Origin: Pseudomonas asgharzadehiana
Lineage (GTDB): Bacteria > Pseudomonadota > Gammaproteobacteria > Pseudomonadales > Pseudomonadaceae
NCBI RefSeq assembly: GCF_019139815.1
Contig: NZ_CP077079.1
Location: 2,418,001 to 2,482,000, forward strand
Length of the DNA stretch: 64,000 nt
Direction of reading: 5' to 3'
Below, piece by piece: positions 23,379 to 45,638 of the stretch (position 1 is its first letter; every line of letters begins with the position of its first letter). The notes under the pieces are model-generated. The model had not been told where the DNA came from and did no database searches. It worked only from the letters and a program-made list of their open reading frames with translations. The translations under genes were made by a program, and so were the position numbers.

Positions 23379-23385
23379 AGTCAAT

Positions 23386-24107: not shown

Positions 24108-24116
24108 GCTGGATGA

Positions 24117-25154: not shown

Positions 25155-26081
25155 ATGACCCTCTCTCTGTTGATTGCCTTATTGCCCATCGCAATACTGA
25201 TCGTGCTGGGTGCATGGCTTAAGCGTCGTCAGTTTTTAGCAGATATTTTTTGGGCGCAGGCGGAACGCTTGGCGTATTACGTATTGCTGCCTTCACTTTT
25301 CTTTCACGGACTGGCGACCGCCAAGCTTGATGGGCTGCCCTTTCAAAGCATGGTCTCTGTGCTCATATTGTCGACTGTGGTGGTGGCGCTAATGCTGCTG
25401 GGAGCGCGAGCGCTAATCACTACGGACAATGCGGCGTTCACCTCGGTTTTTCAGGGTGGCATTCGTTTCAATAATTACGTGGGCGTGTCTGCAGCAGCCG
25501 GCTTGTTCGGTGCGCAAGGCATCGCCCTGGCAGCCGTCGCGAATGCGGCGATAGTGCCCACAGTGAACATCTTGTGTGTGATGGTTATCGCGAAGTATGG
25601 ATCGGGTGGCAGGATGCCTTTCAGCAAAGTTCTAAAGCAAATAGCTCTGAACCCGCTGGTACTGGCTTGCTTCGCAGGCGGATTGATACAGGCGTCAGGC
25701 TGGGGGTTACCCGTAGGTATCGAAGCGGTGCTCAAAGCCTTGGGGCAAGCGTCATTGCCGCTCGGTTTACTCTGCGTTGGTGCCGCGCTTGAGTTCGTGA
25801 GTTTACGACAATGGCTGCGCCCTGTCGGATATTCGTCGTTAGTAAAGTTTTTAATCATGCCGTTAGTCACGCTTTGCGCCTGCCATCTGTTTGGGCTAGA
25901 CGGAAAGGCCGCAATTGCAGCATTGCTATTCCAGGCACTGCCTACTGCATCATCCTCTTACATCATGGCAAGGCAGTTAGGGGGAGACGCGCCTCTCATG
26001 GCTGGAATCATCGCTTGCCAAACCATGTTGGCAGCCATAGCGCTCCCCGCCGTTGTTCTAATAATGTCCCAGTGGGTTTGA
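25155..26081 (+). CDS. AEC-family transporter (auxin efflux carrier type)
   Basis: 308 residues with ten hydrophobic segments. It shows typical AEC features: AERLAYYVLLPSLFFHGLAT near the N-terminus, RFNNYVGVSAAAGLFGAQG in the middle and LFQALPTASSSYIMARQLGG near the end. An upstream TTG at 25128 adds 9 unlikely residues. Bacterial AEC proteins move malonate, malate or other small carboxylates. It is probably controlled by the LysR regulator just upstream; the substrate is not identifiable. Confidence 0.82.
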   Translation: MTLSLLIALLPIAILIVLGAWLKRRQFLADIFWAQAERLAYYVLLPSLFFHGLATAKLDGLPFQSMVSVLILSTVVVALMLLGARALITTDNAAFTSVFQGGIRFNNYVGVSAAAGLFGAQGIALAAVANAAIVPTVNILCVMVIAKYGSGGRMPFSKVLKQIALNPLVLACFAGGLIQASGWGLPVGIEAVLKALGQASLPLGLLCVGAALEFVSLRQWLRPVGYSSLVKFLIMPLVTLCACHLFGLDGKAAIAALLFQALPTASSSYIMARQLGGDAPLMAGIIACQTMLAAIALPAVVLIMSQWV

Positions 26082-26252
26082 GCAAATATCGCAGTGCCGA
26101 CTAGTCCATGCATCGCTTTTGATCAAAAAATTCTGCGCGCCAAAGGTACCTAAGAAGTCTCTCATTTAGCGGGGGGCGGCGGATTATTTTGTCATTTTTT
26201 TCCTCTGGACCTTTTGCCTGGACGGACACATCGATCTATCTATGATCCGAGC

Positions 26253-26264
26253 GACCGATCGGGC
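26253..26264. promoter_or_regulatory. GACCGATCGG element resembling the TetR operator
   Basis: GACCGATCGGGC shares 10 of 12 bases with the palindrome before soxC. It stands about 300 bases upstream of the PQQ dehydrogenase start and 230 bases upstream of its sigma-54 promoter. It may be a third site for the TetR protein or a chance match; the second half-site has lost its final T. Confidence 0.3.
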
Positions 26265-26370
26265 AGTAAGCCTGTGTCAGCAAGGACCAGGGTATCGTCG
26301 CGTCGCTGTCTTAAGAGGGGCTGATGGAAAAAACCATGGCGATACATGCCGAGGTTAGGGCAAACAGAAG

Positions 26371-26417
26371 TGTGCCAGGAGTGACACAAATGCCCCGTAG
26401 GTGCGACAACTGTCGCA
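26371..26417 (+). promoter_or_regulatory. tandem upstream activator sites of the sigma-54 activator
   Basis: Two inverted repeats lie 30 bp apart centre to centre, about three helix turns. TGTGCCAGGAGTGACACA (26371-26388) has one arm mismatch. TGCGACAACTGTCGCA (26402-26417) is a perfect 7-2-7 palindrome. They lie about 75 bp before the -24 element of the sigma-54 promoter. The TGT...ACA pattern is that of sites bound by AcoR-type activators, and such an activator is encoded at 30313. Confidence 0.65.
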
Positions 26418-26485
26418 GGTTGACTCAGTTATCGATTCTGGTTGTAAGCCCGATACGACGTGGCTTACAGCTCTTTAGCGAGGAC

Positions 26486-26501
26486 TGGCATAGGGGTTGC
26501 T
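26486..26501 (+). promoter_or_regulatory. sigma-54 (-24/-12) promoter of the PQQ alcohol dehydrogenase
   Basis: TGGCATAGGGGTTGCT matches the consensus TGGCAC-R-N4-TTGCW at every strongly conserved base, with GG and GC 10 bases apart. Transcription would begin near 26512, giving a leader of about 47 bases before the ATG at 26559, which has its own AGGAG. Confidence 0.75.
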
Positions 26502-26558
26502 CTTGTTCCTCTGCGCAGCGCAATGGCTTCGCTACTAATAAGAATCAGGAGTTCCCCC

Positions 26559-28736: not shown

Positions 28737-28743
28737 ACGCCCG

Positions 28744-28778
28744 CGATGCAGGGGGGCGGGGCGCCCCTGCATCGTTTT
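28744..28778 (+). terminator. perfect-stem hairpin between alcohol and aldehyde dehydrogenase genes
   Basis: CGATGCAGGGG and CCCCTGCATCG form an 11-bp perfect stem with a 9-base loop, followed by TTTTCG. It stands 8 bases after the dehydrogenase stop and 30 bases before the aldA-like start. It would act as a terminator or partial attenuator that lowers aldehyde dehydrogenase expression relative to the alcohol dehydrogenase. Confidence 0.7.
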
Positions 28779-28803
28779 CGACACTGTCCGCGAGAGCAAG
28801 CAC

Positions 28804-30240
28804 ATGAACGAAATCATCGATTACCAGAACTTCATCGCCAACGCCTTCGTTCCTGGCGACCCCAGCATCGAAGTGCGCAACCCGGCCAACGACCGACTGT
28901 TGGCGCGGGTGCCCGAAGCCAGTGGCGAGCACGTTGAAGCGGCTATTGCCGCGGCGCGCAAGGCGCAGAAAAGCTGGGCGGCCCGACCGGCCATCGAACG
29001 CGCCGGCTACCTGCGCAAGATCGCCAGCAAAGTGCGCGACAACGCCGAACGACTCGCCCACATCATCACCGCCGAGCAAGGCAAGGTGCTGGGGCTGGCG
29101 CGGGTGGAGGTCAACTTCACCGCCGATTACCTGGATTACATGGCCGAATGGGCACGGCGTCTCGAAGGTGAGGTGCTGACCAGCGACCGCGTCGGCGAAA
29201 GCATCTTCCTGCTGCGCAAACCCCTGGGTGTGGTGGCCGGCATCTTGCCGTGGAACTTCCCGTTCTTCCTGATCGCTCGCAAAATGGCGCCAGCCTTGGT
29301 GACCGGCAACACCATCGTGATCAAGCCCAGTGAAGAAACCCCGATCAATTGCTTCGAGTTCGCCCGCCTGGTGGCCGAGACCGACCTGCCGGCCGGGGTG
29401 TTCAACGTGGTCAGCGGCACGGGGGCGACAGTGGGGCATCAGCTGACCAGCCATGCCGGCATTGATCTGATCAGCTTTACCGGCAGCGTCGGCACTGGCT
29501 CGCGGATCATGGCCGCGGCGGCGCCGAACATCACCAAGCTCAACCTGGAACTGGGGGGCAAGGCGCCGGCTATCGTGCTCGCGGACGCCGACCTGGAGCT
29601 GGCGGTCAAGGCCGTCACCGCGTCGCGGGTGATCAACACCGGGCAAGTCTGCAACTGCGCCGAGCGGGTGTACGTCGAACGCAAGGTCGCCGATCAGTTC
29701 ATCGAGCAGATTGCCGCGTCGATGGCCGCTACCCGGTACGGCGACCCGCTGGCCGAAGACGATCTGGACATGGGGCCGCTGATCAATCAGGCCGCGCTGG
29801 ACAAGGTCGCGCAGATGGTCAAGAGCGCCACGGGGCAGGGCGCCGAAGTGGTGACTGGCGGCGCCGTGGCCGACAAGGGCCAGGGTTTCCATTACCAGCC
29901 AACCGTTCTGGCCGGCTGTGGCAGCGACATGGCGATCATGCGCCAGGAGATCTTTGGCCCGGTGTTGCCGATCCAGATCGTCGAAGACCTGGACGAAGCC
30001 ATCGCCCTGGCCAACGACAGCGAATACGGCCTGACTTCATCGATCTACACCCGCAGCCTGAGCGCGGCCATGCGCGCCAGTCATGAACTGGATTTTGGCG
30101 AAACCTACATCAATCGCGAGAACTTCGAAGCGATGCAGGGCTTCCATGCGGGGACGCGCAAATCCGGCATTGGCGGCGCGGACGGCAAGCACGGCTTGTA
30201 TGAATACACCCACACCCACGTGGTCTACATTCAGATCTGA
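28804..30240 (+). CDS. aldA: aldehyde dehydrogenase, AldA (glycolaldehyde/lactaldehyde) type
   Basis: 478 residues of the NAD-dependent aldehyde dehydrogenase family. It shows GVVAGILPWNFPFFLIARKM, the NAD-loop FTGSVGTGSRIM, the catalytic Glu in LNLELGGKAPAIV and the catalytic Cys in NTGQVCNCAERVYVER. The CNCAERVYV sequence is characteristic of the AldA/lactaldehyde dehydrogenase subfamily. It would oxidise the aldehyde produced by the upstream PQQ alcohol dehydrogenase to the acid in the cytoplasm. Base composition matches the alcohol dehydrogenase and regulator genes, so the three form one acquired unit. Confidence 0.87.
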   Translation: MNEIIDYQNFIANAFVPGDPSIEVRNPANDRLLARVPEASGEHVEAAIAAARKAQKSWAARPAIERAGYLRKIASKVRDNAERLAHIITAEQGKVLGLARVEVNFTADYLDYMAEWARRLEGEVLTSDRVGESIFLLRKPLGVVAGILPWNFPFFLIARKMAPALVTGNTIVIKPSEETPINCFEFARLVAETDLPAGVFNVVSGTGATVGHQLTSHAGIDLISFTGSVGTGSRIMAAAAPNITKLNLELGGKAPAIVLADADLELAVKAVTASRVINTGQVCNCAERVYVERKVADQFIEQIAASMAATRYGDPLAEDDLDMGPLINQAALDKVAQMVKSATGQGAEVVTGGAVADKGQGFHYQPTVLAGCGSDMAIMRQEIFGPVLPIQIVEDLDEAIALANDSEYGLTSSIYTRSLSAAMRASHELDFGETYINRENFEAMQGFHAGTRKSGIGGADGKHGLYEYTHTHVVYIQI

Positions 30241-30260
30241 TCGCTGGTCCGTGCGCAGAG

Positions 30261-30295
30261 AAATGCCGACACCCGTGAGGGCGCCGGCATTTTTA
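30261..30295. terminator. bidirectional terminator between aldA and the sigma-54 activator
   Basis: AAATGCCG and CGGCATTTTT pair outside an inner CCC/GGG stem, with T-runs on both strands. It lies between two convergent genes. Confidence 0.65.
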
Positions 30296-30312
30296 TTGGT
30301 GCGGACGTGGTA

Positions 30313-32256
30313 TCAGGGCTGGTCGTTGGGCGCGACGACGCCGTGCTTTTTCATCTTGCGATACAGCGTCGAGCGCGAGATGCCCAGGTCCGTCGCGGCG
30401 GCGCTGATGTTCCAGCGATGCCGGCGCAGAGTGCCCAGCAAGTGGCGGGACTCTTCGCCGCCCAGTTGTTCTTCCAGATTGCCGGCCTGCGGCTTAACGC
30501 CGGTAGCCAGTGGCAGCCTCTGCGGTGTCAGCAATTCGCAGGGCAGGCAGTCCAGATCGATCACGCCGCCTTCGGCCAGGGCCACCGCGTAGCGCAGGCT
30601 GTTGAGCAGTTGGCGAATGTTGCCGGGCCATGGGTAATCGAACAGGCATCGGCGGGCATCGGCGTCCAGCCGCAACCCGCGGGCGTCGGTCTGGGCTGCG
30701 AGCAGCGTGTCGATCAGCTCGGCTCGGTCACTGCGCTCGCGCAACGCCGGCAGCGCGAGGTTCATGCCGGCGAGGCGATAAAACAAGTCTTCGCGAAAGC
30801 GCTTCTCGCCGATCATGCTGTGCAGATCCTGATGGGTGGCCGAGATCACTTGGACGTCCAGCATCACCGGCGCCTCGGCCCCCAGTGGCGAAATTTCTCG
30901 TTCTGCCAGCACGCGTAGCAAGCGGGTTTGCAGGTGGGCGGGCATGTCGCCGATCTCATCGAGAAAGAGGGTGCCGCCGTTTGCCAGTTCCAGCTTGCCT
31001 TTCATGCCCTTTCGGTTGGCGCCGGTGAAGCTGCCGGCGCGATAGCCGAACAGTTCGCTCTCGATCAACGTCTCCGGGATAGCCGCGCAGTTCAGCGCAA
31101 CGAAAGGTCCGGCGCGACGACTGCTGGCATGGTGAATGGCACGGGCAAAGGCCTCCTTGCCGGTGCCGGTCTCGCCGGTGATCAGGATCGCAATGCCCTT
31201 GTCGATCACCTTGCGCACGCGCCGCACGTTCTGTTGCAGCCGGGCATCGCTACCTGCGAGTTGTTGCAGTTCCGGGTGGGCCTGAAGGGCGGGGCGGGCG
31301 ACGGGCAGCGGGCGGTGCTGTTCGGAGGGGATACGCAGGCCGACGTCCAGCAAGGCCTCATCACGCAGGCCACGCAAGCGCACCCCCTGGGCGCCACCGT
31401 TGGTGAGCTGGAGCAGTTCGTCCACCGTGGTTGGGAGCAGGCTATCGATGCGAGCGCCGAGCAATCTGGGATTGTCGGCCAGATCCAAGGCGACAAACGC
31501 GGCACGGTTGGCCCCGATGATGCGACCGCTTTCATCCAAAGCGAGCAGTTGCTCGTTGGCCAGGTCGGCGATTTCATCGATGGGTTTGAGGGACAGGGTC
31601 AGGCGGTCGCGGTAGCTCTGGCGAAAGTGTGCGTTCTCGATCAGGCGGGCGTACATGATCACCAGTTGCAACGTGAGGTACTGGCTTTCCCGAGGACCCT
31701 CGTTGTTCATGCAGGTCGCATTCAGGCAACCGCGCAACAAGCCTTGCGCGTCGAAGATCGGCGCCACCGAGCAGCTCAGGCGGAAGTTGGACGCCAGGAA
31801 GTGCTCTTCCCGGTGAATGATCAGCGGTTGCGCCGCCGCCAGGGTCGTGCCGATGCCGTTGGTGCCGACCTCCGACTCATCCCACCGCGCGCCCACCACC
31901 AGCCCGGATCGGGTGTAGGCATCGTGCTGGCTGGGCAGCCGGGAATCCAGGGTGATGCCGTGCTCATCGCTCAGCAGTACGGCAAAGCCGGCGGGCACCA
32001 CGCGCCGGGCCAGGCCGTTCACACCCTGGCTGGCAATGGAAAGATATTGCTGATGCTGTTCCTGGTGACGACGGATGTCCTCGGCGCCAAGGATATTCTT
32101 GCGGCTCGCCGCGCCCGGATCCAGCCGGTGCTGCACGACGCTGCGGTACCAGGACTGTGCAATGACCCCATCGGGCCTGAGGCCGCGCCCGGAAAAATGG
32201 TCGTTGACGAACGCCGCGAGTTCGCTGGGGATCGTCTGCGTGTCATGCAAGGTCAT
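30313..32256 (-). CDS. sigma-54-dependent activator, AcoR/GAF type
   Basis: 647 residues from the ATG at 32256 (GGAG 6 bases upstream); the longer frame is not supported. The N-terminal half (about 70-210) is a GAF-type sensor. Residues about 335-565 are the AAA+ domain, with Walker A GETGTGKEAFARAI, the sigma-54 contact loop GSFTGA (a Ser variant of the usual GAFTGA) and Walker B GGTLFLDEIGDMP. The C-terminus is a Fis helix-turn-helix (ISAAATDLGISRSTLYRKM). Members of this group respond to alcohols, acetoin or aldehydes. It is convergent with the PQQ dehydrogenase/aldA genes, whose promoter has matching upstream sites and a -24/-12 element, so it is the probable activator of these genes. Confidence 0.87.
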   Translation of the reverse strand: MTLHDTQTIPSELAAFVNDHFSGRGLRPDGVIAQSWYRSVVQHRLDPGAASRKNILGAEDIRRHQEQHQQYLSIASQGVNGLARRVVPAGFAVLLSDEHGITLDSRLPSQHDAYTRSGLVVGARWDESEVGTNGIGTTLAAAQPLIIHREEHFLASNFRLSCSVAPIFDAQGLLRGCLNATCMNNEGPRESQYLTLQLVIMYARLIENAHFRQSYRDRLTLSLKPIDEIADLANEQLLALDESGRIIGANRAAFVALDLADNPRLLGARIDSLLPTTVDELLQLTNGGAQGVRLRGLRDEALLDVGLRIPSEQHRPLPVARPALQAHPELQQLAGSDARLQQNVRRVRKVIDKGIAILITGETGTGKEAFARAIHHASSRRAGPFVALNCAAIPETLIESELFGYRAGSFTGANRKGMKGKLELANGGTLFLDEIGDMPAHLQTRLLRVLAEREISPLGAEAPVMLDVQVISATHQDLHSMIGEKRFREDLFYRLAGMNLALPALRERSDRAELIDTLLAAQTDARGLRLDADARRCLFDYPWPGNIRQLLNSLRYAVALAEGGVIDLDCLPCELLTPQRLPLATGVKPQAGNLEEQLGGEESRHLLGTLRRHRWNISAAATDLGISRSTLYRKMKKHGVVAPNDQP

Positions 32257-32397
32257 GAAATGCTCCCATAAGGCGTGAAGGCCACAAAGGACCATCACTG
32301 CGATCTTGTTATTAGAGGCTGGCCGCAGCTGCAACTATCTACCATAGACGCTAGTGCGAAAACTTTCAGCCTTGGAGCAACAAGTCTCATCTACCCG

Positions 32398-32575
32398 GCG
32401 CAACACACCAAACCACTCTCTACGGCGGCAGTTTTACCCCTGGGGCGGAAGGAATGGGGGGCCCAGCACTCCATGAAGTGCGCTCGTGATACGGCATGGA
32501 ATTGACGTATATCATCCATCATAAAGATCAAGGTTATTTCCGTGAGGCAATGGATCAGCAACCGATGTTCCGCCG
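32398..32575 (-). pseudogene. soxC: diverged internal fragment of soxC
   Basis: About 60 residues in frame (PPAEHRLLIHCLTEITLIFM, then DDIRQFHAVSRAHFMECW) align with residues about 132-190 of the intact SoxC protein at 16324 (DPAEHRLVIHGLTENALIFT, then DEIRQFPAVSRVHFMECS). The DNA is about three-quarters identical. The piece includes the Mo-ligand Cys but neither end of the gene. It is fused in frame to the mmsA fragment that follows. Confidence 0.8.
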
Positions 32576-32601
32576 GTGGCGTCGAGAACTCTGAGAACCG
32601 T
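32574..32601. repeat. short imperfect repeat shared with 18594-18620
   Basis: CGGTGGCGTCGAGA is followed by CTGAGA, ACC and AGGC, in the same order as upstream of the DMT gene at 18594. It marks the exact junction of the soxC and mmsA fragments. Confidence 0.35.
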
Positions 32602-33592
32602 ACCAAGGCGTCATATTGTTCTTCAAGGCTGTTCACACGCACGATACAAAGCATCGGTCCGAAGATCTCTTCTTTACAAATAGTCTGGTCGGTGGTGACG
32701 TGGTCGAACAGGCAACCGCCGATGAAGAAGCCCTTTTCGTGGCCAGGCACTTTGAGATCCCAACCATCTACCACCAGGCTCGCTCCGGCCTCGACGCCTG
32801 CGTTCACATAGCCGATGACCTTGTCCATGTGCGCGCGTGTGACAAGCGGGCCCTTGTCCAATCCGCGTTCGGTGCCGGCACCGATCTTCAGTGCCTTGAT
32901 CTGTGGCATCAGCTTGGCGATCCGTCGTCCACTTGATCACCCACACAAACGGCGACGGAGATGGCCATGCAGCGTTCGCCACAGGAGCAGTATGCGGCGC
33001 CCATCAACGCGTTGACCGTGTTGTCGAGATCAGCGTCCGGCATAACCACAGCGTGTTTTTTTGCACTGCCCAGCGCCTGCACGCGTTTGCCGCGTCGGGT
33101 GCCTTCAGTGTAAATATACTCAGCAATAGGCGTGGAGCCGACAAAGCTTAGCGCCTTGACTTCCGGTACCTCGATTAGCGCGTCGACCGCAATCTTATCG
33201 CCAGGCACGACGTTCAGAACGCCCTTGGGTAGGCCGGCATCGTGGAACAGTTGCGCAATTAATAGCGTTGAGCTCGGATCACGTTCCGATGGCTTGAGAA
33301 TAAAGGTATTGCCGCAGGCGATCGCCAATGGATACATCCACAATGGGACCATGGCTGGGAAATTGAAGGGTGTAATGCCCGCTACCACGCCGATGGGCTG
33401 GAAGTCAGACCAGGCATCAATACTCGGCTCTGCGTTGCGGCTGAACTCGCCCTTGAGAATTTCAGGCGCGGCGCAGGCGTACTCGATGTTCTCAATCCCG
33501 CGCTTGAGTTCACCCGTTGCGTCCTCCAGCGTCTTGCCATGTTCCTCACTGATCAGTTGGGCAATTTCGGCTTCATTGGATGTGCTGAGTTC
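32596..33592 (-). pseudogene. mmsA: methylmalonate-semialdehyde dehydrogenase, truncated and frameshifted
   Basis: Pieces of a CoA-acylating methylmalonate-semialdehyde dehydrogenase can be read on the minus strand: [75 protein letters not shown], then after a frame change near 32915 PQIKALKIGAG and KEEIFGPMLCIVRVNSLEE. The first about 95 and the last about 100 residues are missing. The N-terminal piece is in a frame different from the start of the central piece, and the 3' end is replaced by a soxC fragment. The Cys nucleophile region (GERCM) is present. Such a gene cannot make a working enzyme. Confidence 0.82.
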
Positions 33593-33684
33593 AGGCGAAC
33601 TGAAAATCCGATTTTTTCAACACATTCGGCCAATAGTTGTCGATCGGGCATGCCCGCGTGCAAGAGGATAGACCGCAGGTTGAA

Positions 33685-34494
33685 TCATTCAAAATTGACA
33701 TGTTCCTTGCAATATAACTTTCGGTAAACGGCAGGCGTCATACCGACCTTGCGTATGAAAAGACGGCGCATGTAGGCGCTATCCTTGAAGCCGCAACGTT
33801 GCGCAATGACCGCGATCGATGAGTCGTTTCTCAAAAGCATTCGCTCCGCTGCCGTGATTCGCTGGCGATGAATCGCCTCTGTGATGGTGACGCCGAATGC
33901 CTGGCGAAATACCCGTCCAAGGTAGTCGGCATTGCAACGAAGCAATTCAGCGAGCGACGACGCGCCAAGCTCATCCCCGAACCGGATGCCAATCTGTTGT
34001 CGGGCACGGTAGGCCAAGGCCATGCCTCGTTCGGCAATGCCCGTTTTCTCCTGATGACGGGACAGCCGCTGCAGCATCAGGAGCACTAGCAGCCCTAAGG
34101 TTTCAGGCGGTGCGCCATCTTCCTGTTCACCGAGAAAAAGCCTGAGCAGGGCCACGAATCGCTCAGGCTCTGTCACTGCAGTTCGGCGTCGCACCACAAA
34201 GGACCCGCTCTCCGGAGCGGTAGTGGGCGCCAGCTCGAAATGCAACCAGTAGAAACGCAATGCGGGGTCATAATCAGTGATTCCTTCATGCAATTGTCCG
34301 GGTTGCAGCAGTAGGGTTTCGCCTGCACCCAACACGAAGTCTTCGTCTTGCTCGCGCAAAGCAAGACTGCCCTTGTCCACGTAAATCAACTCGTAAGAGT
34401 CGATGACCCTTCGCGGATGCCGACCCACCCCGCGCGAAATGAAATAGCCGCCGTTCTGCGCCACGATTGGACTTGCGAATTTCAAAGCCAACAT
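33685..34494 (-). CDS. AraC-family regulator of the arabinoside locus
   Basis: 269 residues from the ATG at 34494 (GGAG 9 bases upstream). The N-terminal cupin-like sensor domain (LALREQDEDFVLGAGETLLL, then QPGQLHEGI) resembles sugar-binding AraC proteins. The C-terminal double helix-turn-helix includes SSLAELLRCNADYLGRVFRQ, IAVIAQRCGFKDSAYMRRLF and the ending MTPAVYRKLY. It is divergent from a GPH sugar transporter and GH127 arabinofuranosidase across a 215-bp gap, so it most probably activates them in response to an arabinose-related sugar. Confidence 0.85.
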   Translation of the reverse strand: MLALKFASPIVAQNGGYFISRGVGRHPRRVIDSYELIYVDKGSLALREQDEDFVLGAGETLLLQPGQLHEGITDYDPALRFYWLHFELAPTTAPESGSFVVRRRTAVTEPERFVALLRLFLGEQEDGAPPETLGLLVLLMLQRLSRHQEKTGIAERGMALAYRARQQIGIRFGDELGASSLAELLRCNADYLGRVFRQAFGVTITEAIHRQRITAAERMLLRNDSSIAVIAQRCGFKDSAYMRRLFIRKVGMTPAVYRKLYCKEHVNFE

Positions 34495-34709
34495 AAGAAC
34501 GCTCTCCAATAGCCAACTGACGTACTTACCGTGTAAACCTTCAAGGAAAGTCGGAATCGTCCCGCTCTTCTACCGTTTAGCTCTCTTGAGGAGAGGCTCG
34601 GGCAGGTGCCACCATACTGACCACACGGCCTGCGTTTTCAAGCGCAATACCGTCCAAACGCCTGTTATGCAGCCAGGCGCTAATAATTACAAGAATTGGA
34701 GAGCATTGC

Positions 34710-36101
34710 ATGACTACGTCAGCCTTGGCGTCCGCGGTTGCGGCCTCGACGCAATCGCAGCCTACAACATTATCCCGCTCGGAAAAATTTGGGTATGGCT
34801 TGGGTGATGCGGGAGGCACGATCATCACCTGCTTGATTGCCAACTTCCTCACGTTCTTCTACACCGACGTCTTTGGACTGACCCCTGCCGTTGTGGGCAC
34901 GTTATTTCTGTTGTTGCGCGTCGTGGACGCCGTCGCTGACCCCTTAATGGGCGCCATCGCCGACCGCACCAATAGCCGTTTCGGGCGTTTTCGCCCTTGG
35001 CAACTCTGGGCTGCCTTGCCTATAGGCTTGGCTGGCATTCTTACCTTCAGCACGCCGGAGTTGAGCGCTACGGCCAAGATCGCCTACGCCTTTATCACCT
35101 ACCTAATACTGTCGCTGAGCTACAGCGCAATCAACGTACCGTACTGCGCGCTGATCAGCACCATGACCAAGGACCATCAGGACGTCATGTCTTGCCAGAC
35201 CTGGCGCTTCATGCTCTGTGGCGTCTCCGGTTTCCTGGTGTCGGTGGGCCTGCCGTGGATGGTCGACATGCTTGGGCAGGGCGACATCGCAAAAGGTTAC
35301 CACTGGGGCGTGACGATACTCTGTGGCGTGGCCGTGGCCATGTTTCTATGGTGCTTCTTCAGCGTGCGCGAACGCATCACGCTGACCGAACTGGGTACCT
35401 TCAGCCTACGCCAGCACTTGGCGGGCATGCGCCAGAACGATCAACTGATGTTGATGCTGGCGTTGTCATTTCTATTGATTAACGTGCTCAATATTCGCGG
35501 CGGCGGTTATCTGTATTTCATTACCTATGTCCTGTACGGCGATACGGCCTATACGTCGCTGTTTTTCGGCATGGTGGCTGTGGCGACCATTCTGGGAGCC
35601 TTTCTAGTGCCGATTTTGTCGCGCGGCATCGATCCATTGAAACTGTACCTAGGGATCAACCTATGGTTGGCGCTCTGGAGCGCCGGGCTCTATTTTGTCC
35701 CAGCCTCCGAAAACCAAGCAGGTCTGTGGCTAGCGTTGATATTCATCACGTGCCTCATCCAGGGCATGACATTACCTTTGCATTTTTCCTTCATGGCCTT
35801 CGCCGATGATTATGGTCGTTGGAAAACCGGAATTCGCTCGTCGGGCATGAACTTCGCGGCCAATCTGTTCTGCATCAAGTTGGCGTGGGCCTCCGGCGCC
35901 TTGGTTATCAGCATTCTCTTCACCCTAGTGGCCTACCAGCCGGGCCAGTCTGCGCAGACCCCCGCCTCCCTGGGTGGCATTACTCTGCTGCAAACCCTGA
36001 TTCCCGCCGCATTTCATCTGCTGCTGGCCGCAGTGCTGGCTTACTGCAAGTTGGATCGAACTTTACTAAAACGCATATCCGCAGAATTGAAGACTGTTTG
36101 A
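34710..36101 (+). CDS. GPH-family sugar:cation symporter
   Basis: 463 residues with 12 membrane segments. The N-terminal [20 protein letters not shown] and the loop [17 protein letters not shown] (the GPH form of the MFS helix 2-3 motif) place it with glycoside-pentoside-hexuronide transporters such as XynP, YicJ and LacS. GGAG lies 8 bases before the ATG. These carriers import oligosaccharides or glycosides with Na+ or H+. The GH127 gene starts 19 bases after its stop, so the substrate is probably a beta-L-arabinofuranosyl disaccharide or glycoside. Confidence 0.87.
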
Positions 36102-36120
36102 TCCCAAAGGAGAATATTTC

Positions 36121-38088
36121 ATGTCTGATTACAACAACAGCATCGGCAACACACGTGCACAAGTCGTGGATGGCTTTTGGACGACCTACCAGAAGTTGGT
36201 CAGGGACGTCGTGATTCCCTACCAATGGGACGCGTTGAATGATCGCATTGATGAAGCCGAGCCTAGTCATGCGATCGAGAACTTCCGTATCGCGGCGGGT
36301 CGGCAACAAGGAGAACACCATGGCATGGTGTTTCAGGACAGCGATGTCACCAAGTGGATCGAGGCGGTCGCCTATCAATTGAGTGGGGCCGGCGATTCAA
36401 CTTATGAGGCGATCGTTGACGAGGTGGTCGAACTCATCGGTGCCGCACAGCAGGAAGACGGTTACCTCAATACCTATTTCACAGTCAAGGCGCCGGCAGA
36501 CCGCTGGTCCAACCTGGCCGAATGTCACGAATTGTACTGTGCCGGGCACTTGATCGAAGCAGCGGTAGCCTATTACCAGGCCACAGGGAAAACTGCGTTG
36601 TTGGAAATCGCGAGACGGTTGACCGACCACATCGATCACGTCTTCGGTCCGGCACCGGGCCAATTGCGAGGTTACCCCGGTCATCCTGAGATCGAATTGG
36701 CGTTGACGCGTCTCTACGAGGTCACGAACGAGGAGCGTTATTTGCGTCTGTGCCGTTTTTTCGTGGAGGAGCGTGGGCGGACACCTCACTTCTATGATGA
36801 GGAATATGCACGCCGAGGACACACCTTCTACTGGCACAGCCACGGGCCCGCGTGGATGATCAAAGACAGGGCCTACAGCCAGGCGCATGAGCCCATCGTC
36901 CAGCAGACAAAAGCGGTGGGGCACGCGGTTCGCTTGCTTTACCTTTATACGGGGGTCGCCCATCTGGCGCGACTGAGTAACGATACGCAACAGGCCGCAG
37001 CCTGCCATCGCATCTGGGACAACCTGACTCAGCGCCAGATGTACGTGACCGGCGGCGTCGGCGCGCAAAGCCATGGCGAGGCCCTTGCCAGCGATTATGA
37101 TCTGCCCAGCGACACCGCTTATGCCGAGAGCTGCGCCTCGATTGCCCTGGTAATGTTCGCCCGGCGCATGCTTGAACTGACGCCAGAAGCGCGCTACGCC
37201 GACGTCATGGAGCGCGCACTGTACAACACGGTACTCGCCGGCATGGCCCTGGACGGTCGGCACTTTTTCTACGTCAATCCCCTTGAAGTGCACCCGTCGG
37301 ATTTGGCGGGCAACCATCTCTACGATCACGTCAAAGCGGTACGCCAGCGCTGGTTTGGATGCGCCTGCTGCCCGCCGAATATTGCACGCATCCTGGGCGC
37401 GCTGGATCAGTACATCTACCTTCTGCGCCAGGACGTCCTCTATGTGAACCTGTATATAGGCAGCGACTTGCGGTTTGAGGTTGCTGGTAAGACTTGGCAT
37501 CTGCAACAGCGTGGCAACTATCCTTGGCAGGGAAAAATCAGCTTCACCCTCAGGGGGCATGAAAGCGTAAGCCTAACCCTGGCCCTGCGTATGCCGGACT
37601 GGTGTGCTGCTCCGGAGGTTTGGGTAAACGGCGAACGGTTCGAGTCAGAGGCGTCGATGCTTGCGGGCTACTTGCGAGTAGAACGAGAGTGGAGTGAGGG
37701 GGATCGAGTCGATGTGATCCTGCCGATGTCACCTGTGCGACTCAGGGCCCATCCCGCCGTACGCAAATTAGCCGGCAAGGTCGCCGTGCAACGCGGTCCG
37801 ATAGTTTATTGCCTGGAACAGGCTGACAACGGTACGGAGCTGCATCAATTGGCATTGGCGCAAACGGCCGTTTTCACTGAGGTCGATGGCCAGGGCGCGC
37901 TGGAGGGGATGGTGCAACTTAAAACTGAAGGGCTACGATTAGCGACGGTTGATCCAGAGCAGCCGCAAAGCTTGTATAGCCAGGCCGCTGCCCCGAGGCC
38001 GAGTGCGCAGACGTTGACCTTCACGCCTTATTTCGCTTGGGCCAATCGGGGAGAAGGCGAAATGCGGGTCTGGGTGGACGAGCGATAG
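36121..38088 (+). CDS. beta-L-arabinofuranosidase, glycoside hydrolase family 127
   Basis: 655 residues, the family length. All residues known from the Bifidobacterium enzyme HypBA1 can be placed: the acid/base Glu at E320 (GGVGAQSHGE), zinc ligands E336 and C338 (YAESCASIALV), and C416-C417 in GCACCPPNIARIL, the first being the catalytic cysteine nucleophile. AAGGAG precedes the ATG. The enzyme cleaves terminal beta-1,2-L-arabinofuranosyl units, as found on plant hydroxyproline-rich glycoproteins (extensins). No signal peptide is visible, so it acts in the cytoplasm on sugar brought in by the GPH transporter and the LamB-type porin. Confidence 0.92.
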   Translation: MSDYNNSIGNTRAQVVDGFWTTYQKLVRDVVIPYQWDALNDRIDEAEPSHAIENFRIAAGRQQGEHHGMVFQDSDVTKWIEAVAYQLSGAGDSTYEAIVDEVVELIGAAQQEDGYLNTYFTVKAPADRWSNLAECHELYCAGHLIEAAVAYYQATGKTALLEIARRLTDHIDHVFGPAPGQLRGYPGHPEIELALTRLYEVTNEERYLRLCRFFVEERGRTPHFYDEEYARRGHTFYWHSHGPAWMIKDRAYSQAHEPIVQQTKAVGHAVRLLYLYTGVAHLARLSNDTQQAAACHRIWDNLTQRQMYVTGGVGAQSHGEALASDYDLPSDTAYAESCASIALVMFARRMLELTPEARYADVMERALYNTVLAGMALDGRHFFYVNPLEVHPSDLAGNHLYDHVKAVRQRWFGCACCPPNIARILGALDQYIYLLRQDVLYVNLYIGSDLRFEVAGKTWHLQQRGNYPWQGKISFTLRGHESVSLTLALRMPDWCAAPEVWVNGERFESEASMLAGYLRVEREWSEGDRVDVILPMSPVRLRAHPAVRKLAGKVAVQRGPIVYCLEQADNGTELHQLALAQTAVFTEVDGQGALEGMVQLKTEGLRLATVDPEQPQSLYSQAAAPRPSAQTLTFTPYFAWANRGEGEMRVWVDER

Positions 38089-38157
38089 CCACGCCAACGC
38101 GGATTACTAACAGTGGTCCGGAGTGTGCTGAGCACAGTTAAAAACAAGCCTAAACAT

Positions 38158-38196
38158 CTCCTGCTGCCGAGGCTTTGAGCAATCGGCAAGCAGGAG
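38158..38196 (+). terminator. hairpin after the GH127 gene
   Basis: CTCCTGCTGCCGA and TCGGCAAGCAGGAG pair with one bulged base and a 12-base loop, 70 bases beyond the GH127 stop; there is no T-run. The rest of 38089-38384 holds a CGATATCG palindrome (38230-38237) and AT-rich DNA likely to be the porin promoter, with no gene. Confidence 0.5.
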
Positions 38197-38300
38197 CGGC
38201 ATCTGCACGAAAGGCTGTTGTTAAAATAGCGATATCGTTTATGCGTAATGCCGACGTCTGAATGAAAGCAATATGAGTAACTAAGGTTGCTTGAATCTAA

Positions 38301-39611
<1,311 letters not shown>

Positions 39612-39841
39612 GCCACCGCATGCTGGTGATTGAGGAAAACCTCTGGCCAACTGAGATCGATGGGAGGCGGTTGCCCCGGCTGAGCCCCTGCAGGCGCGCC
39701 CCGCAATACTGTCTGCATATATCAAGCCCTCCAGCCATGTTTGCCGCCCATTGGCGAAGCGAATAGACAGAGATGCAGCAATCCGGCGTCGGTATTGGTT
39801 GCCTCAAGATCCAGCTGCGCGCGCTGCTTTCCCTGCTTCTC

Positions 39842-39985
39842 CTAGTAGCTACGGGCAGGGAGAGGGATACCAGCTTTGCGGCAAGCCTTGGCGACGGCGA
39901 CGTCAGACACACCGACGTCCTGAGCCAACTTGACCATCGGCGTTTCCCATACTTTTTCGAACAGTTCCGCAATGGAGAAGGTCAC
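39842..39985 (-). pseudogene. remnant of a DNA-binding-like protein gene
   Basis: From a GTG at 39985 a 47-residue frame reads IAELFEKVWETPMVKLAQDV, then GVSDVAVAKACRKAGIPLPA, and ends at an amber codon where family members normally have a Tyr-Trp pair. This is the N-terminal helix-turn-helix-like segment of a protein seen in Pseudomonas genomes; beyond the stop the frame continues only as low-quality sequence. It is probably a nonsense-mutated, truncated gene. Function is unknown. Confidence 0.5.
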
Positions 39986-40228
39986 TAATGTGTACATGCA
40001 GTCTGCCATCCCAATCTATCGCGAGTTTAGGTCAACTCGGTCGGAGCGGATGTTAAATTTCAGAGAGTTTTTGGGCACAAGCAGTCCACATGGCGGGCGT
40101 GTTCCGCTGGTGCTGAAAAGGCATCATTGACTCGGTCGGCGCGTGCTCGCTCGTGACGAGATGAGCCTGCCGTCCTTCACGGACCGACGCGTCATCGTCA
40201 TCTCGTAAACCACCGCCTAACTGTCCAG

Positions 40229-40249
40229 ACCGGACGCTTCCCGTCCGGT
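40229..40249. other. perfect hairpin in non-coding DNA
   Basis: ACCGGACG-CTTCC-CGTCCGGT forms an 8-bp stem with a 5-base loop. It stands in a 400-bp stretch (39990-40394) with no recognisable gene. There is no T-run; its role is unknown. Confidence 0.4.
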
Positions 40250-40395
40250 TGGCTATGGATAGAAGGAAATGGCACAGCCCGGAGTCACCCCTTCTTGGCC
40301 CTTGATACTCCCCAAAAACGAGTCCAGAATTAAGTCTTTTCCTGCTTCGGCAAGAAAAGAAACCCCTTAGATTTCAACGAGTCGGACACCTGATG

Positions 40396-40416
40396 CGAGT
40401 CTCGTTTCCCGCTCCA
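40396..40416 (+). repeat. tRNA-Gly 3'-end copy: probable att site of an integrative element
   Basis: The 21 bases end in GTCTCGTTTCCCGCTCCA and equal the 3' end (T-arm half plus acceptor strand and CCA) of bacterial tRNA-Gly(GCC). The bases upstream do not continue the tRNA. The 18-base part is the attachment sequence known for ICEclc/PAGI-2-type elements. It is followed after 8 bases by a strong terminator of the kind found after a tRNA. Both facts fit the distal attachment scar of an island that lies to the left. Confidence 0.75.
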
Positions 40417-40424
40417 AGATTCAG

Positions 40425-40456: not shown

Positions 40457-40798
40457 GTGCCTGAAAATTGCTTTCGCCCATGCCTACAGGTCTTTCCGGC
40501 CCATGCTGTGTAAAAACGCAGTTCCAGAATGCATGGCACGCCAGCACCGACCCCCAAAATCCGCCGGGTCTGCGCGCAGTGGGCATGTTAAGACTATGCT
40601 AATCGCCACTGCAGGCCATGTACTGGTTTGAGTTGTCGTCCGCCAAGGAAAGGAGTCTGTACGTGTCTGGTTCTTCATACCCGGTTCTATTATCGCAATG
40701 GCCTCATGAGCCGTCCGGCCCGCCGAAGAAGCGTTGGTCGGCAACGCCGCAGTGGCCTCACCCACAGGCAGTCAATCCCAGGCACGATGGAGATCGGT

Positions 40799-41899
40799 AT
40801 GAAGGCTGACCCGATCTACGCAGTCCTCTGGCGCTTCGCCGCCTGCATGGGCGGGTTGCTGATGATTGCCGCCAGTCCGGCCCACGCTGCCGACAGCGGT
40901 ATCGCCGGCGGCCCGACCGCAAGCCATAGCATTGCCTTCAGCAATTCATACGCGGGCAGCGATTTTCGTAAGGTGATGGTGCGCAATTGGCAGGAGATAG
41001 CAGCGCAAGCGCAAAAGGAGGGTTTGATCCGTGAGGCGCCGGTGGTCAGTGCCAATAATTCGGCGTCGGAACAAGCGGCCCATATCCAGGACTTGATCGT
41101 CAAGGGCGTCGACGCCATCGTCATCCTGGCCGCGTCCGACACGGCGCTCGATGGGGTGATCCGCGATGCGTGTAACGCCGGCATCGTGGTGGTGGTCATG
41201 GCCAGCCTGGTCACCGAAGGCTGCGTCTATACCGTGGACTACAACTGGTCCGCCATGGGCCGCATAGAAATTGATTACATTGCCAAGCGCCTCAAGGGTA
41301 ACGGCACGCTGCTGGAGATCCGCGGCATTGCTGGTGATGCCACCGATAAAAATATCAGCGACGGCATTCGTCAGGCCGCCAGTGAATATCCGGGCCTGAA
41401 GTTCGCCAAGACCGTGTACGGGAACTGGACAGGCGCTGTGGCGCGCAAGGAGGTGGCGCTGGCGCTGCCGTCGCTGCCCGGCATTGATGCCGTCGCGACC
41501 CAGGGGGGCGACGGGTATGGCGCGGCGATGGCGTTCAAGGCGGCGGGCCGACCATTGCCGATCATCGTGATGGGTAACCGTCAGGATGAACTTGCCCTGT
41601 GGAAACAGGAACGCGATGCCAATGGCTACGAGACCGTCTCTGTTTCGGCTTCCCCCAGTGTCTCCCAAGTGGGGTTCTGGGTCGCCCAGCAGGTTCTGGC
41701 GGGCAAGCAGGTGCCCAAATTCGTCGAGGTGCCGCTGGTGCGTATCGATGCGAAAGACTTGGACGCCTGGCTTGCCGACATGCCGGTGGGGGGGGCCGCC
41801 AATCCGTTCTACAGCCAGGCTTCCGTTGCGGCAATGATCGACGCGGCCATCAACCATACGGCGCCGCCGGCGCCTTTGCCGGAGGTGATGAAGCAGTAA
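40799..41899 (+). CDS. periplasmic sugar-binding-like protein partner of the hybrid kinase
   Basis: 366 residues from the ATG at 40799 (GGAG 6 bases upstream), with a signal peptide ending at SPAHA. It has the two-lobed fold of type I periplasmic binding proteins (IVKGVDAIVILAASDTALDG, then VIRDACNAGIVVVVM, then GDATDKNISDGI, then IDAVATQGGDGYGAAMAF). Its stop is 19 bases before a giant hybrid kinase gene and no permease or ATPase is nearby. The inference is that it acts as a ligand receptor that signals through the kinase's periplasmic domain, as in TorT-TorS or LuxP-LuxQ. The ligand is unknown. Confidence 0.8.
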   Translation: MKADPIYAVLWRFAACMGGLLMIAASPAHAADSGIAGGPTASHSIAFSNSYAGSDFRKVMVRNWQEIAAQAQKEGLIREAPVVSANNSASEQAAHIQDLIVKGVDAIVILAASDTALDGVIRDACNAGIVVVVMASLVTEGCVYTVDYNWSAMGRIEIDYIAKRLKGNGTLLEIRGIAGDATDKNISDGIRQAASEYPGLKFAKTVYGNWTGAVARKEVALALPSLPGIDAVATQGGDGYGAAMAFKAAGRPLPIIVMGNRQDELALWKQERDANGYETVSVSASPSVSQVGFWVAQQVLAGKQVPKFVEVPLVRIDAKDLDAWLADMPVGGAANPFYSQASVAAMIDAAINHTAPPAPLPEVMKQ

Positions 41900-41918
41900 T
41901 GGCGGGCAGGGAGCGAGG

Positions 41919-44900
41919 ATGCGGGGCGCCATGTTGACATTCAAACCGGTCGTGGACCGGCCCATTGCCGTCAAAATTGGCCTGGCGGTCGCCGCATTGG
42001 TGTTCCTGATGCTGGCGGTTTCGCTAGTGAACCTCTACGGGCTGCGAGGCATGGTGCGCGCGGTGGATTCTGCCAGCCATTCCGCAGAAATTCTGGCGTC
42101 GGTCAACGCGGCCACCGGTCGCGTGGAAAACTTCATCGCCACCCGCGACCAGCAAAGCCTGGCCCAGGCCGAAAGCATGGTTGCGACGGCTATCGCCGGG
42201 CTCACCGCTATTCCGGTGGCCGAAGCGCAGTCGCTCAACGGCAGCCTGGAGCGGCTCGCCGCAGCGATCACGGCCTTGCGCGTGGCGAGCCTGACCATGG
42301 ATGGCGAAACCGAGAACATGACCGCCCATTACGGCCGGATGCGAGAGGCAACGACCCTGGTCGAACAGGGCATCGCCGATGGGTTGAAGGGGCTCGACGC
42401 TCGCGCCGTTGAGCACAAGGCGCGGGTGAGCGACATCGACAGTGCCCACCGCATCCTCAATGTCCTGCGCAACGGCGAACGGATCATTACCGCCAATGTC
42501 GCCAGGGTGCTGGTGACCGGGGATGCGGCAGCCGCCGCTGCGGCGCATAGCGCTAGCGTCGCGCTCCAGCCCGTGGTCGAACAATTGCGCGAGGTGATGG
42601 GGGCGCCGCAGCAGAGCGAGGCCCTCGACCAGTTGGCCGCAGCGCTCGCGGCGGCTGGCGTGGCGGTTGAGCGCCTTGGCGAGGCGCCCAGACTGCGAGG
42701 GGGCGAAGCCTTGCGGCATCTGGCCGCCGTCGCAGATGGGGCGGGACGCCTCGAGACGATGTTGGATGATGTGGATGGCGACGTCGCCCACGACGCCAGC
42801 GATATTCAGGCGGCCACCGGCTTGCTGCACAATGCCGCCGCGCTATCCAAGCGTTTCGCCGAGCGCGTGGCGACCTTGGAGGCGCAGACCTTGTCGTTTC
42901 GTCTGTCACCGTCGGCCGAGGTCGCCAAATCCGTCGTCACCCTCCTGGACGAGCTATCCCGTCTCTCTCGGGTGCTTCCATCCTCCGTGGGGCTGCAAGC
43001 CACGGCGACGCCGCTGACGGTCAGCGAACAGATTGCCGGCTATCGGGCGGCATTCGCCAGGTTCCATCAAGCGAGCAACGCCTTGAGCGACGCGCGCGAC
43101 CAGGTTCGCAATGAAGCACGCAGCGCGGGCCTGTTGGTTGCTCGTTTTGCGGGCCAAGCGCGCTCCGACGCCTTGGTCCACAATGATCGCGGCATGCTGG
43201 CGACGATCATTGCGGTCACCGTCGCTATCCTGCTGGCCGGCGCCATTGCCTGGAGCACCTCACGATTTATCGCGCAGCCCATTGTGGCCCTGGCCTCGGT
43301 CATGCGCCGGCTTGCGGCGGGCGACCTGCACGCCGAAATCGCCAGCGCCGGGCGCGGTGATGAGATTGGCATCATGACCCGCGCCGTTCGGGTGTTCCAG
43401 GAAACTGCCCTGCGCATCCGCGTGCTGGAGGCCGAGGCCGAAGCCGAACGACAGCAAGTCCAGGCCTCTTTGGAGCGCATGGTCGCCGAGCGCACCGACA
43501 CCCTGCATCACCAGACCGAGGTGCTGGAGGCGCAGGCCGTCGAGCTTATTGAGGCGCGCAACCAGGCCGATACGGCCAACCAGGCGAAAAGCGATTTCGT
43601 GGCCACCGTCAGCCACGAATTGCGCACCCCCTTGACGCTCATTCTCGCGCCTCTGGAGCAGCTTTCGGCGGCGGCCACCCCGCCCGCAGACTGGCGAGTA
43701 CAGATCGAGCGCGCCCAGCGCAATGCGCTGCGCTTGATGAACCGGGTGAACGACATCCTCGATTTCTCCAAGGCCGAAGCGGGCAAGTTCGAGGTGTGCC
43801 CAGCGCCCGTCGACTTGAACAAAGCAGTGGGCGTGTTGGCCGAGGATGCCGCCCTGGTGGCCGAGAGCAAAGGCTGCACCTTGACGTGCAGCATCGATCC
43901 CTCGCTGGGCACGGTGTTCCTGGACCCCCGGCACTTCGAGAAGATCCTGCTCAACCTGGTGAGCAATGCCATCAAGTTCACCCCCGCTGGCGGCACGGTG
44001 CACGTGGCAGTCACGCCGATCGATGGCGAGCGATTTGAGCTGGCGGTGCACGACTCGGGGATTGGCATTGCTGCCGACAAACTGCCGCTGCTGTTCCAGC
44101 GCTTTTCCCAGATCGATAATTCCGCCACGCGCCACTACAGCGGCACAGGCATCGGCCTGGCGCTGGTCAAGGATCTGGTCGAATTGATGGGGGGCGAAGT
44201 CGGCGTCAACAGCGAACCCGGACGCGGCTCGTGTTTCTTCGTTCGACTGGCGCTGGGGGTTGAGAAAAACACCGTGCCGACCGACGCCGGCACGCTGCGC
44301 GAGCAGTCTTCACCGAGCGCGACAGGCTCGGCCGAGCAGCGCCAGCTGCGTTTCGACGACGGCCGCCAGGACGGTTCGACGCATGACGCAGACGACGAGC
44401 AGCTGCCGGAACACGCCTCGCGATCCAGAGTGCTGGTGGTCGACGACAGCCCGGAAATGCTCAGCTATCTGCGCGAGCTGTTGCACGACGACTACCTCGT
44501 CGCCACCGCCACGGATGGCGAACAGGCGTGGGCACTCCTGCAGCGTCGACCCATCGATGTCGTCGTTTCGGATGTGATGATGCCGCTGCTCGACGGCTTC
44601 GGCCTGACCGCCAGGATCAAAGCCAGCGCGGGTTTTGCCCATTTGCCCGTGATCCTGGTGACCGCCCGCGGCGGTAGTGATGCCTGCGTAACCGGGTTGG
44701 AAAGTGGCGCCGATGACTACCTCGCCAAACCCTTCTCGCCGCTGGAACTCAAGGCTCGCGTCCGCGCGGCGCTACGCATGAGCCAGGTACAAACCGAACT
44801 GCACGCAAAGTCCCGCCAGGCGGGCATGGCCGAAATCGCCACGGCGGTGCTGCATAACGTCGGCAACGTTCTTAACAGCGTGAACGTCTCGGCAGACCTG

Positions 44901-45638
44901 GTCAGCAACCAGTTGCGCGCTTCGAAAGCCCAGGGCTTGAGCAGGGTGGCTCAGTTGATGAGCGAGCACGCCAACGACCTGGGCGACTTTCTCACCCAAG
45001 ACCCCAAAGGCAAGATGCTGCCCGATTACCTGGTCAAGCTGGCGCAGGCGGTGACGGCAGAGCAGCAAGGCATTGTCCAAGAGCTCGGGCAACTCACCAA
45101 GGGCATCGACCACATCAAAACCATAGTTGCGGCCCAGCAGTCCTACGCCGTTGCTGTCAGTGTCGTGGAGGCAGTCTCGGTCACGGCGCTAATCGATGAT
45201 GCCTTGCGCATGAGTGCCGGCTCACTGGAGCGCCAGGGGGTAGCGGTGGTCAAGGCGATTGCCGAGTTGCCCCTGCTCTCGCTGGACCGGCACCGGGTGC
45301 TGCTGATTTTGGTGAACCTGATCGGCAATGCCAAGCACGCGTTGGAGGGCGTGGTCGATCGTAGCCCGAGCGTCACGCTCCAAGCGTGCCTGGATGACGC
45401 ATCAGCACTGCGCATTTCAGTGGCCGACAACGGCAGCGGAATTACCCCAGAGCACCTGGCGCGGATTTTTTCGCATGGCTTCACCACTCGCAAAGACGGT
45501 CACGGCTTTGGTCTGCACAGCTGCGCACTCGCGGCACAGGAAATGGGGGGGCGCTTGACTGTACACAGCGACGGCGCCGGGCAGGGCGCGACGTTTACCC
45601 TGGTTATTCCCCTGGATGCTTCGCTGAGTCAGGGATAA
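41919..45638 (+). CDS. hybrid sensor histidine kinase with two kinase cores and a receiver
   Basis: 1,239 residues. There is a membrane helix at about 18-40, a large helical periplasmic domain to about 425, a second helix at 426-448 and a HAMP domain to about 500. A short coiled coil leads to a HisKA with phosphoacceptor H566 (TVSHELRTPLTLIL). The first ATPase domain contains NLVSNAIKFTP and HDSGIGIAADKLPLLFQRFS. A receiver domain has the acidic pair in VVDDSPEML and phospho-acceptor D885 (VVSDVMMPLLDGF). A second HisKA-like helix pair with H979 (TAVLHNVGNVLNSVN) and a second ATPase domain (NLIGNAKHALEG, then DNGSGITPEHLARIFSHGFT, then GHGFGLHS) close the protein. It is co-transcribed with the periplasmic binding protein. 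No DNA-binding response regulator is adjacent. Confidence 0.87.
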   Translation: MRGAMLTFKPVVDRPIAVKIGLAVAALVFLMLAVSLVNLYGLRGMVRAVDSASHSAEILASVNAATGRVENFIATRDQQSLAQAESMVATAIAGLTAIPVAEAQSLNGSLERLAAAITALRVASLTMDGETENMTAHYGRMREATTLVEQGIADGLKGLDARAVEHKARVSDIDSAHRILNVLRNGERIITANVARVLVTGDAAAAAAAHSASVALQPVVEQLREVMGAPQQSEALDQLAAALAAAGVAVERLGEAPRLRGGEALRHLAAVADGAGRLETMLDDVDGDVAHDASDIQAATGLLHNAAALSKRFAERVATLEAQTLSFRLSPSAEVAKSVVTLLDELSRLSRVLPSSVGLQATATPLTVSEQIAGYRAAFARFHQASNALSDARDQVRNEARSAGLLVARFAGQARSDALVHNDRGMLATIIAVTVAILLAGAIAWSTSRFIAQPIVALASVMRRLAAGDLHAEIASAGRGDEIGIMTRAVRVFQETALRIRVLEAEAEAERQQVQASLERMVAERTDTLHHQTEVLEAQAVELIEARNQADTANQAKSDFVATVSHELRTPLTLILAPLEQLSAAATPPADWRVQIERAQRNALRLMNRVNDILDFSKAEAGKFEVCPAPVDLNKAVGVLAEDAALVAESKGCTLTCSIDPSLGTVFLDPRHFEKILLNLVSNAIKFTPAGGTVHVAVTPIDGERFELAVHDSGIGIAADKLPLLFQRFSQIDNSATRHYSGTGIGLALVKDLVELMGGEVGVNSEPGRGSCFFVRLALGVEKNTVPTDAGTLREQSSPSATGSAEQRQLRFDDGRQDGSTHDADDEQLPEHASRSRVLVVDDSPEMLSYLRELLHDDYLVATATDGEQAWALLQRRPIDVVVSDVMMPLLDGFGLTARIKASAGFAHLPVILVTARGGSDACVTGLESGADDYLAKPFSPLELKARVRAALRMSQVQTELHAKSRQAGMAEIATAVLHNVGNVLNSVNVSADLVSNQLRASKAQGLSRVAQLMSEHANDLGDFLTQDPKGKMLPDYLVKLAQAVTAEQQGIVQELGQLTKGIDHIKTIVAAQQSYAVAVSVVEAVSVTALIDDALRMSAGSLERQGVAVVKAIAELPLLSLDRHRVLLILVNLIGNAKHALEGVVDRSPSVTLQACLDDASALRISVADNGSGITPEHLARIFSHGFTTRKDGHGFGLHSCALAAQEMGGRLTVHSDGAGQGATFTLVIPLDASLSQG

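Follow-up and report, generated by a model that had tools for sequence, protein, structure and literature searches.

A 22-nt copy of the 3' end of a tRNA-Gly gene, found at positions 40396-40417 of the DNA studied here, is in our reading the attR of an integrated and probably self-transmissible ICE of the ICEclc/PFGI-1 class, measuring 170,971 bp from repeat to repeat, and we give this reading a probability of roughly 0.93. The window, that is the whole stretch of 64,000 nucleotides that was analysed, corresponds to C1:2418001-2482000 of its own genome (G000), a single contig of 6.107 Mb. With the border of the 171-kb element thus fixed, the first 40.4 kb of the window are best taken as horizontally acquired cargo and the rest as chromosome. 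A first-pass annotation of this DNA had proposed that the left part of the window is an integrated island, and the proposal holds, positions 1..40395 being the end of the element's cargo. The features at this border are as follows:

1..40395, no strand assigned: right-hand 40.4 kb of the element (cargo), continuing to the left up to G000 2287446; from the att pair, the integrase and the conjugation module
40289..40395, + strand: conserved right-end sequence just inside attR; from alignments in congeners
40396..40417, + strand: attR repeat; positions 40399-40416 are the 18-bp ICEclc att as printed in PMC9960961
40422..40457, + strand: terminator hairpin; from the fold, and from the same or nearly the same sequence after the whole tRNA-Gly in G193, G145, G146 and G181
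40628..45638, + strand: chromosomal right flank, two frames, a periplasmic binding protein and a hybrid histidine kinase; from Pfam

The repeat copies the tRNA-Gly 3' end exactly over 22 nt, so the 21 bases initially annotated were correct as a match and one base short of the true span; the ICEclc att that had been recognised within them is indeed there. No second match to the 22-nt repeat was found within the window at up to 3 mismatches, and none of 100 shuffles contained a match. Since ARAGORN finds no tRNA in the window, the copy is a tRNA fragment. Genome-wide, the 18-mer AGTCTCGTTTCCCGCTCC occurs five times, always in forward orientation (5 forward, 0 reverse): three copies belong to a cluster of tRNA-Glu and tRNA-Gly genes around 2081 kb, a fourth to a tRNA-Gly(GCC) that stands alone, and the fifth is the scar itself, while the reversed pattern, used as a control, gave 0 copies. 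A terminator had also been announced right after the scar, and a 59-nt stretch there folds at -23.3 kcal/mol with its hairpin at about 40422-40457; the consensus promoter/terminator scanner did not list this hairpin, which was seen by folding. It is probably the terminator of the tRNA-Gly, moved away by the insertion.

The annotation had placed the element and its intact integrase to the left of the window, or else considered them lost. The former is the case: on that side there is an intact tRNA-Gly bearing the same repeat, together with an integrase frame free of interruptions, and loss is ruled out, as the 171-kb element is still in place in G000 with its integrase frame and conjugation genes. 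The lone tRNA-Gly(GCC) is found at G000 2287370-2287445, 171 kb left of the scar and behind pgsA, and direct repeats of its 3' end mark both borders (2287425-2287446 and 2458396-2458417, 22 nt). It is adjoined by a tyrosine recombinase of 613 aa (2287668-2289509, a 640-codon open frame with no internal stop) that carries Arm-DNA-bind_3, Phage_int_M and Phage_integrase domains. IntB13 is called P4-type in PMC13393423, a name that we apply to the Arm-binding recombinase found here. We found 124 relatives of this integrase in named genomes, and among the 80 that were kept the closest (83-96% identical) came from Pseudomonas, and other Beta- and Gammaproteobacteria contributed many with about 60% identity. 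Identity was 58.7-59.4% to three plasmid records covering at least 80% of its length; for the P. putida plasmid record NZ_AP015030.1 (483 kb) it was 58.7%.

The integrase tail that had been noted at 23.9 kb is real, if faint:

23895..24122, - strand: probable remnant of a different tyrosine recombinase (C-terminal part); from the match to the element integrase

Its 31.6% identity over 76 residues (E 7e-7) concerns residues 342-417 of the element integrase. It was rejected as a part of that enzyme, the element's own integrase being at the opposite end, and it is probably the leftover of another tyrosine recombinase inside the cargo.

Integration would have proceeded as follows. The 613-aa recombinase would have joined the repeat of a circular element to the 3' end, identical in sequence, of the tRNA-Gly(GCC) that stands alone behind pgsA; the copy brought in would have restored a whole tRNA gene at attL, and the displaced 3' end with its terminator would now lie 171 kb off, at position 40396 of the window. 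The reverse reaction is the putative route of excision, and a MobH relaxase with a PFL_47xx-type T4SS the putative machinery of transfer; the element may still be active. Between 2300808 and 2348249, G000 contains relaxase, T4SS, TraD, TopB, ParB and ParA-like genes of the PFGI-1/ICEclc class. Thirty frames were scanned with NCBIfam, 8 of which remained without a match. Above cut-off were the MobH relaxase of PFGI-1 class (NF041494 and TIGR03760), the PFL_47xx-type T4SS set (TIGR03744, 03749, 03752, 03755, 03756, 03754 and 03759, with TIGR03746, 03748, 03751, 03761 and 03765 in addition), which includes a TraC-like ATPase and TraD, as well as ParB (TIGR03764) and TopB (NF005829, TIGR01056). 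TraG_N and STY4528 were matched too, and the ParA-like frame stayed under the cut-off of its best model, NF041546 (81 vs 180 bits). A 10-kb segment with a small XerC/D-like recombinase lies in the conjugation module (G000 2319089-2329544), and the alignment with the genome G287 is broken there.

We then compared the site in congeners. The pgsA-tRNA-Gly stretch was matched in 119 of the 119 genomes searched, own genome included. The right-flank DNA was matched in 6 genomes out of 119 in one search and in 28 out of 398 in another, with the own genome counted in both, and its distance to the tRNA is very variable, so it is not a neighbour that every congener has kept beside the tRNA. Twenty-seven congeners carry the right-flank gene. 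Of these, 8 show a GCCACTC/GAGTGGC terminator no more than 60 nt from tRNA-Gly, 7 have one integrase match longer than 400 residues (in one case only 50% identical), 8 a partial or broken match and 4 neither. For 29 congeners chosen by their best pgsA-tRNA matches, with one genome entered twice, the counts were 5 for the terminator, 4 for the integrase, 9 for partial or broken and 12 for neither. The comparison with strains lacking the segment, suggested in the first-pass annotation, gave empty sites: 4 of the 27 right-flank congeners (G193, G145, G146 and G181, half of the 8 with the terminator) carry the post-scar sequence right behind tRNA-Gly, and the exact repeat does not recur in the next 20 kb or so. 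The G193 junction consists of 77/77 bp from the tRNA side and 75 bp that match the post-scar sequence at 97%; the two matches overlap by exactly the 22-nt repeat, and no integrase match was found within the 19.9 kb of G193. The other junctions are alike (G145, 94% over 70; G181, 93% over 70; G146, 100% over 62); in G146, a degenerate att-like match was noted 15.3 kb further down. The remaining terminator-type genomes, G293, G361, G409 and G334, have more copies of the 18-mer 7-45 kb downstream, each preceded by the same right-end sequence, and therefore look like arrays of units. Since such tandem units exist, the terminator alone is no proof of an empty site; we rejected the equation of every terminator-type site with an empty one and kept the four named above. 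It counts against our reading that in none of the 27 congeners was the right-flank gene seen at a distance of a few hundred bases or less from tRNA-Gly. G253 comes closest: at about 7 kb it has the same right-flank pair downstream of tRNA-Gly and of the same terminator, with a 2.8-kb insertion in between that is delimited by a degenerate scar; in several of the 27, tRNA-Gly and the right-flank gene are on separate contigs.

The right end of the element recurs as well. Alignments of the right-end sequence run into the repeat in G120 (86%), G017 (89%), G060 (94%), G010 (81%), G133 (87%) and G073 (87%), some of them extending past it into the terminator, and the sequence is 90% identical over 122 bp in G287. 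The G287 element, which spans the contig end and measures 146.8 kb if that contig is circular, shares its ends and core with that of G000 but differs in cargo, which gave no match of at least 300 bp to the G000 stretch 2268001-2562000. Its core is 91-92% identical to that of G000 over the first 30 kb, and then 87% and 84%, values no higher than the 86% of the 1.9 kb of adjoining chromosome. We count the same ends and core with other cargo, and the 91-92% of the first 30 kb vs 86% for the chromosome, in favour of the element being mobile. Serial scars were observed at the lone tRNA-Gly of G361, G409, G293, G334, G288 and G310, each after the same right-end sequence; many are then followed by the same terminator, G409 excepted, and what comes after the scar in G334 and after the first scar in G288 resembles the integrase-side left end. 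In G120, the scar of a 154-kb element is directly followed by sequence 68% identical to the integrase end (C1:2462300-2482200), where a second element probably stands in tandem. In G017, the pgsA-tRNA-Gly stretch and the scar are 44 kb apart and point in opposite directions, and uvrC is turned round with respect to pgsA, which suggests an inversion across the island site.

Several known elements resemble this one by their published descriptions. The putative ICE of Pseudomonas fluorescens F113 also lies downstream of a tRNA-glycine and is of similar size (175 vs 171 kb); its att, TTGGAGCGGGAAACGAGACTCG, is published as the exact reverse complement of the 22 nt found here, and its order by locus tags, with integration genes, a small T1SS cluster, the GI-T4SS and a large cargo, is that of our element (PMC3570484). 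Compared by description, its cargo differs (dit, nos2-nor2; PMC3570484). ICEclc of P. knackmussii B13 has in common with our element the 18-bp att GTCTCGTTTCCCGCTCCA, a tRNA-Gly with GCC anticodon, a P4-subfamily integrase, a T4SS and catabolic cargo (PMC9960961, PMC6563109, PMC10732049), although it is 103 kb long vs 171 kb here (PMC10732049). Elements of the ICEbph-sal type, such as that of KF707, have the integrase beside tRNA-Gly, VirB4 and VirD4 components, parA/parB, 18-bp repeats and catabolic cargo, but they target tRNA-Gly(CCC) with another 18-bp repeat, and in KF707 the cargo is just downstream of int with par near the right end, the reverse of the layout seen here (PMC6563109). Island 3 of BG33R, from the same P. 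fluorescens group as the host here, is an ICE-class island of 154 kb that occupies a tRNA-Gly gene, one of five, and almost half of it is given over to genes for integration, maintenance and conjugation; by its description it differs in carrying indole-acetate catabolism and other cargo, and it is reported without conjugative pilus genes (PMC3390384). A literature search for the single combination of an ICE at tRNA-Gly in Pseudomonas brassicacearum found nothing.

The layout was surveyed in 11 genomes with the integrase beside this tRNA (own included), using TIGR03744 and the G000 ParA at E <= 1e-40. Both were found near the site in 8 of the 11 and neither in G060, G225 and G088. In seven of the eight (G000, G287, G310, G301, G288, G120 and G010), the distance from the tRNA is 44-61 kb for ParA and 140-298 kb for the first exact 18-mer downstream, which leaves 84-252 kb between parA and attR. 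Degenerate inner att sites were scanned for in G000, and in G287 with 1 mismatch; the other genomes were read by the exact 18-mer, of which G288 and G310 have an additional copy past the first. In the eighth genome, G030, whose integrase is 70% identical, the next 18-mer is found at 2.5 kb from ParA, but it is part of a complete tRNA-like sequence and may come from a different unit. The six relatives sharing the layout have integrases 93-99.5% identical over about the first 420 residues. The ICEclc family in the narrow sense, ICEclc itself included, has its cargo beside int and its par genes near attR, an arrangement that is typical and not defining, and that the G000 element does not show. 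The end of its parA is at about 61 kb counted from attL, with 110 kb still to go to attR, and we therefore file it under the PFGI-1/ICEclc class and not under the ICEclc layout.

How the interior came about is a separate matter, and cargo segments shared with G060 together with the internal recombinase remnant suggest that it was built in steps. The island of G060 (C9:1025609-1084018, 58 kb) has the same right end and an integrase whose first 426 residues are 97% identical; TIGR03744 and ParA gave no match in it at E <= 1e-40, and several of its segments match the G000 cargo at 74-94%, in a comparison that covered all but 3.1 kb of the island. It can be cited for an element composed by accretion, in which an ICE of about 61 kb, from integrase to parA, would have been joined in tandem by one or more non-conjugative islands whose ends were the same; with the loss of att sites and integrases in the interior, the outer repeats would now bound a fusion, the scar being originally the attR of a second island. 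The serial 18-mer copies in G288, G310 and G361, the integrase-like sequence after the G120 scar and the remnant in the G000 cargo are in keeping with such a history. However, the matching G060 segments are scattered and reordered and form no single block, and between attL and attR of G000 we found neither an inner att relic at up to 3 mismatches, a scan near its limit since the reversed att pattern gave 1 match at that setting, nor an inner right-end relic at up to 8/32 mismatches. Accretion, which concerns the interior and not the borders, is possible, with the odds somewhat against it.

The integrated ICE could also be a dead remnant, still in place and no longer able to excise or transfer. 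Gene debris in the cargo, an in-frame TAG in ParA of both G010 and G310, and the T4SS gene of the F113 relative, described as broken by an IS66 transposase (PMC3570484), point that way. In G000, however, the integrase, TIGR03744 ATPase and ParA frames have no internal stop, the relaxase, TraD and ParB frames cover nearly their entire profiles, and TopB covers 2-644 of 706, so that we hold this to be rather unlikely. That a tRNA fragment was copied by chance or by a non-mobile duplication, with no element involved, would fit the lack of a tRNA gene within the window and is hardly credible: the shuffles and the genome-wide count rule out a chance repeat, the match is exact over 22 nt, an integrase stands at the partner tRNA, the same right-end sequence precedes the scar in six congeners and in G287, and congeners have empty sites.

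An integrated ICE of a class already known is thus the reading that we retain, and what novelty there is lies in its layout and in the idea of accretion. A distinct lineage of ICEclc-class elements may exist in the P. fluorescens complex, with cargo on the par-attR side and growth by accretion, although we hold this to be less likely than not. In such a lineage, non-autonomous islands equipped with the same integrase and right end would enter this tRNA-Gly one behind another, the inner att sites would disappear, and the genes of the islands would become ICE cargo. If so, the pgsA-tRNA-Gly site would be a workshop where ICEs gain metabolic modules. The recurring parA-cargo-attR order, with the same-end islands devoid of conjugation markers, makes cargo capture by accretion testable.

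The element adds metabolic and defence-type cargo to the known class. From parA to attR, 110 kb of cargo are rich in enzymes, transporters and regulators, with a GC content of 0.538 vs 0.586 in 19 kb of left flank and 0.611 in 104 kb of right flank. Among 68 cargo frames, a subset submitted to Pfam, 64 were matched at E <= 1e-6, including these within the window:

8513..10603, - strand: TonB-dependent receptor
13089..15239, - strand: TonB-dependent receptor
26460..28736, + strand: PQQ-type dehydrogenase with cytochrome c domain
28804..30240, + strand: aldehyde dehydrogenase
30313..32334, - strand: sigma-54-dependent activator
34710..39611, + strand: three frames at attR, an MFS_2 sugar transporter, a GH127 beta-L-arabinofuranosidase and a LamB porin

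Many broken genes had been reported on this side; the part of the claim that was checked yielded two partial-profile frames, 32391-32909, covering only positions 292-385 of 461 of an aldehyde dehydrogenase profile, and 25128-26081, covering only 195-340 of 343 of Mem_trans. Cargo outside the window includes a molybdopterin oxidoreductase, malonyl-CoA decarboxylase, DUF1329/DUF1302/MMPL, a methylamine-dehydrogenase heavy-chain-like protein, thiolase and acyl-CoA dehydrogenase. A group II intron-type reverse transcriptase and a HamB-like helicase are located near the integrase, and a CBASS-type cyclase with a 2TM effector lies near the integrase end at G000 2297583-2299479.
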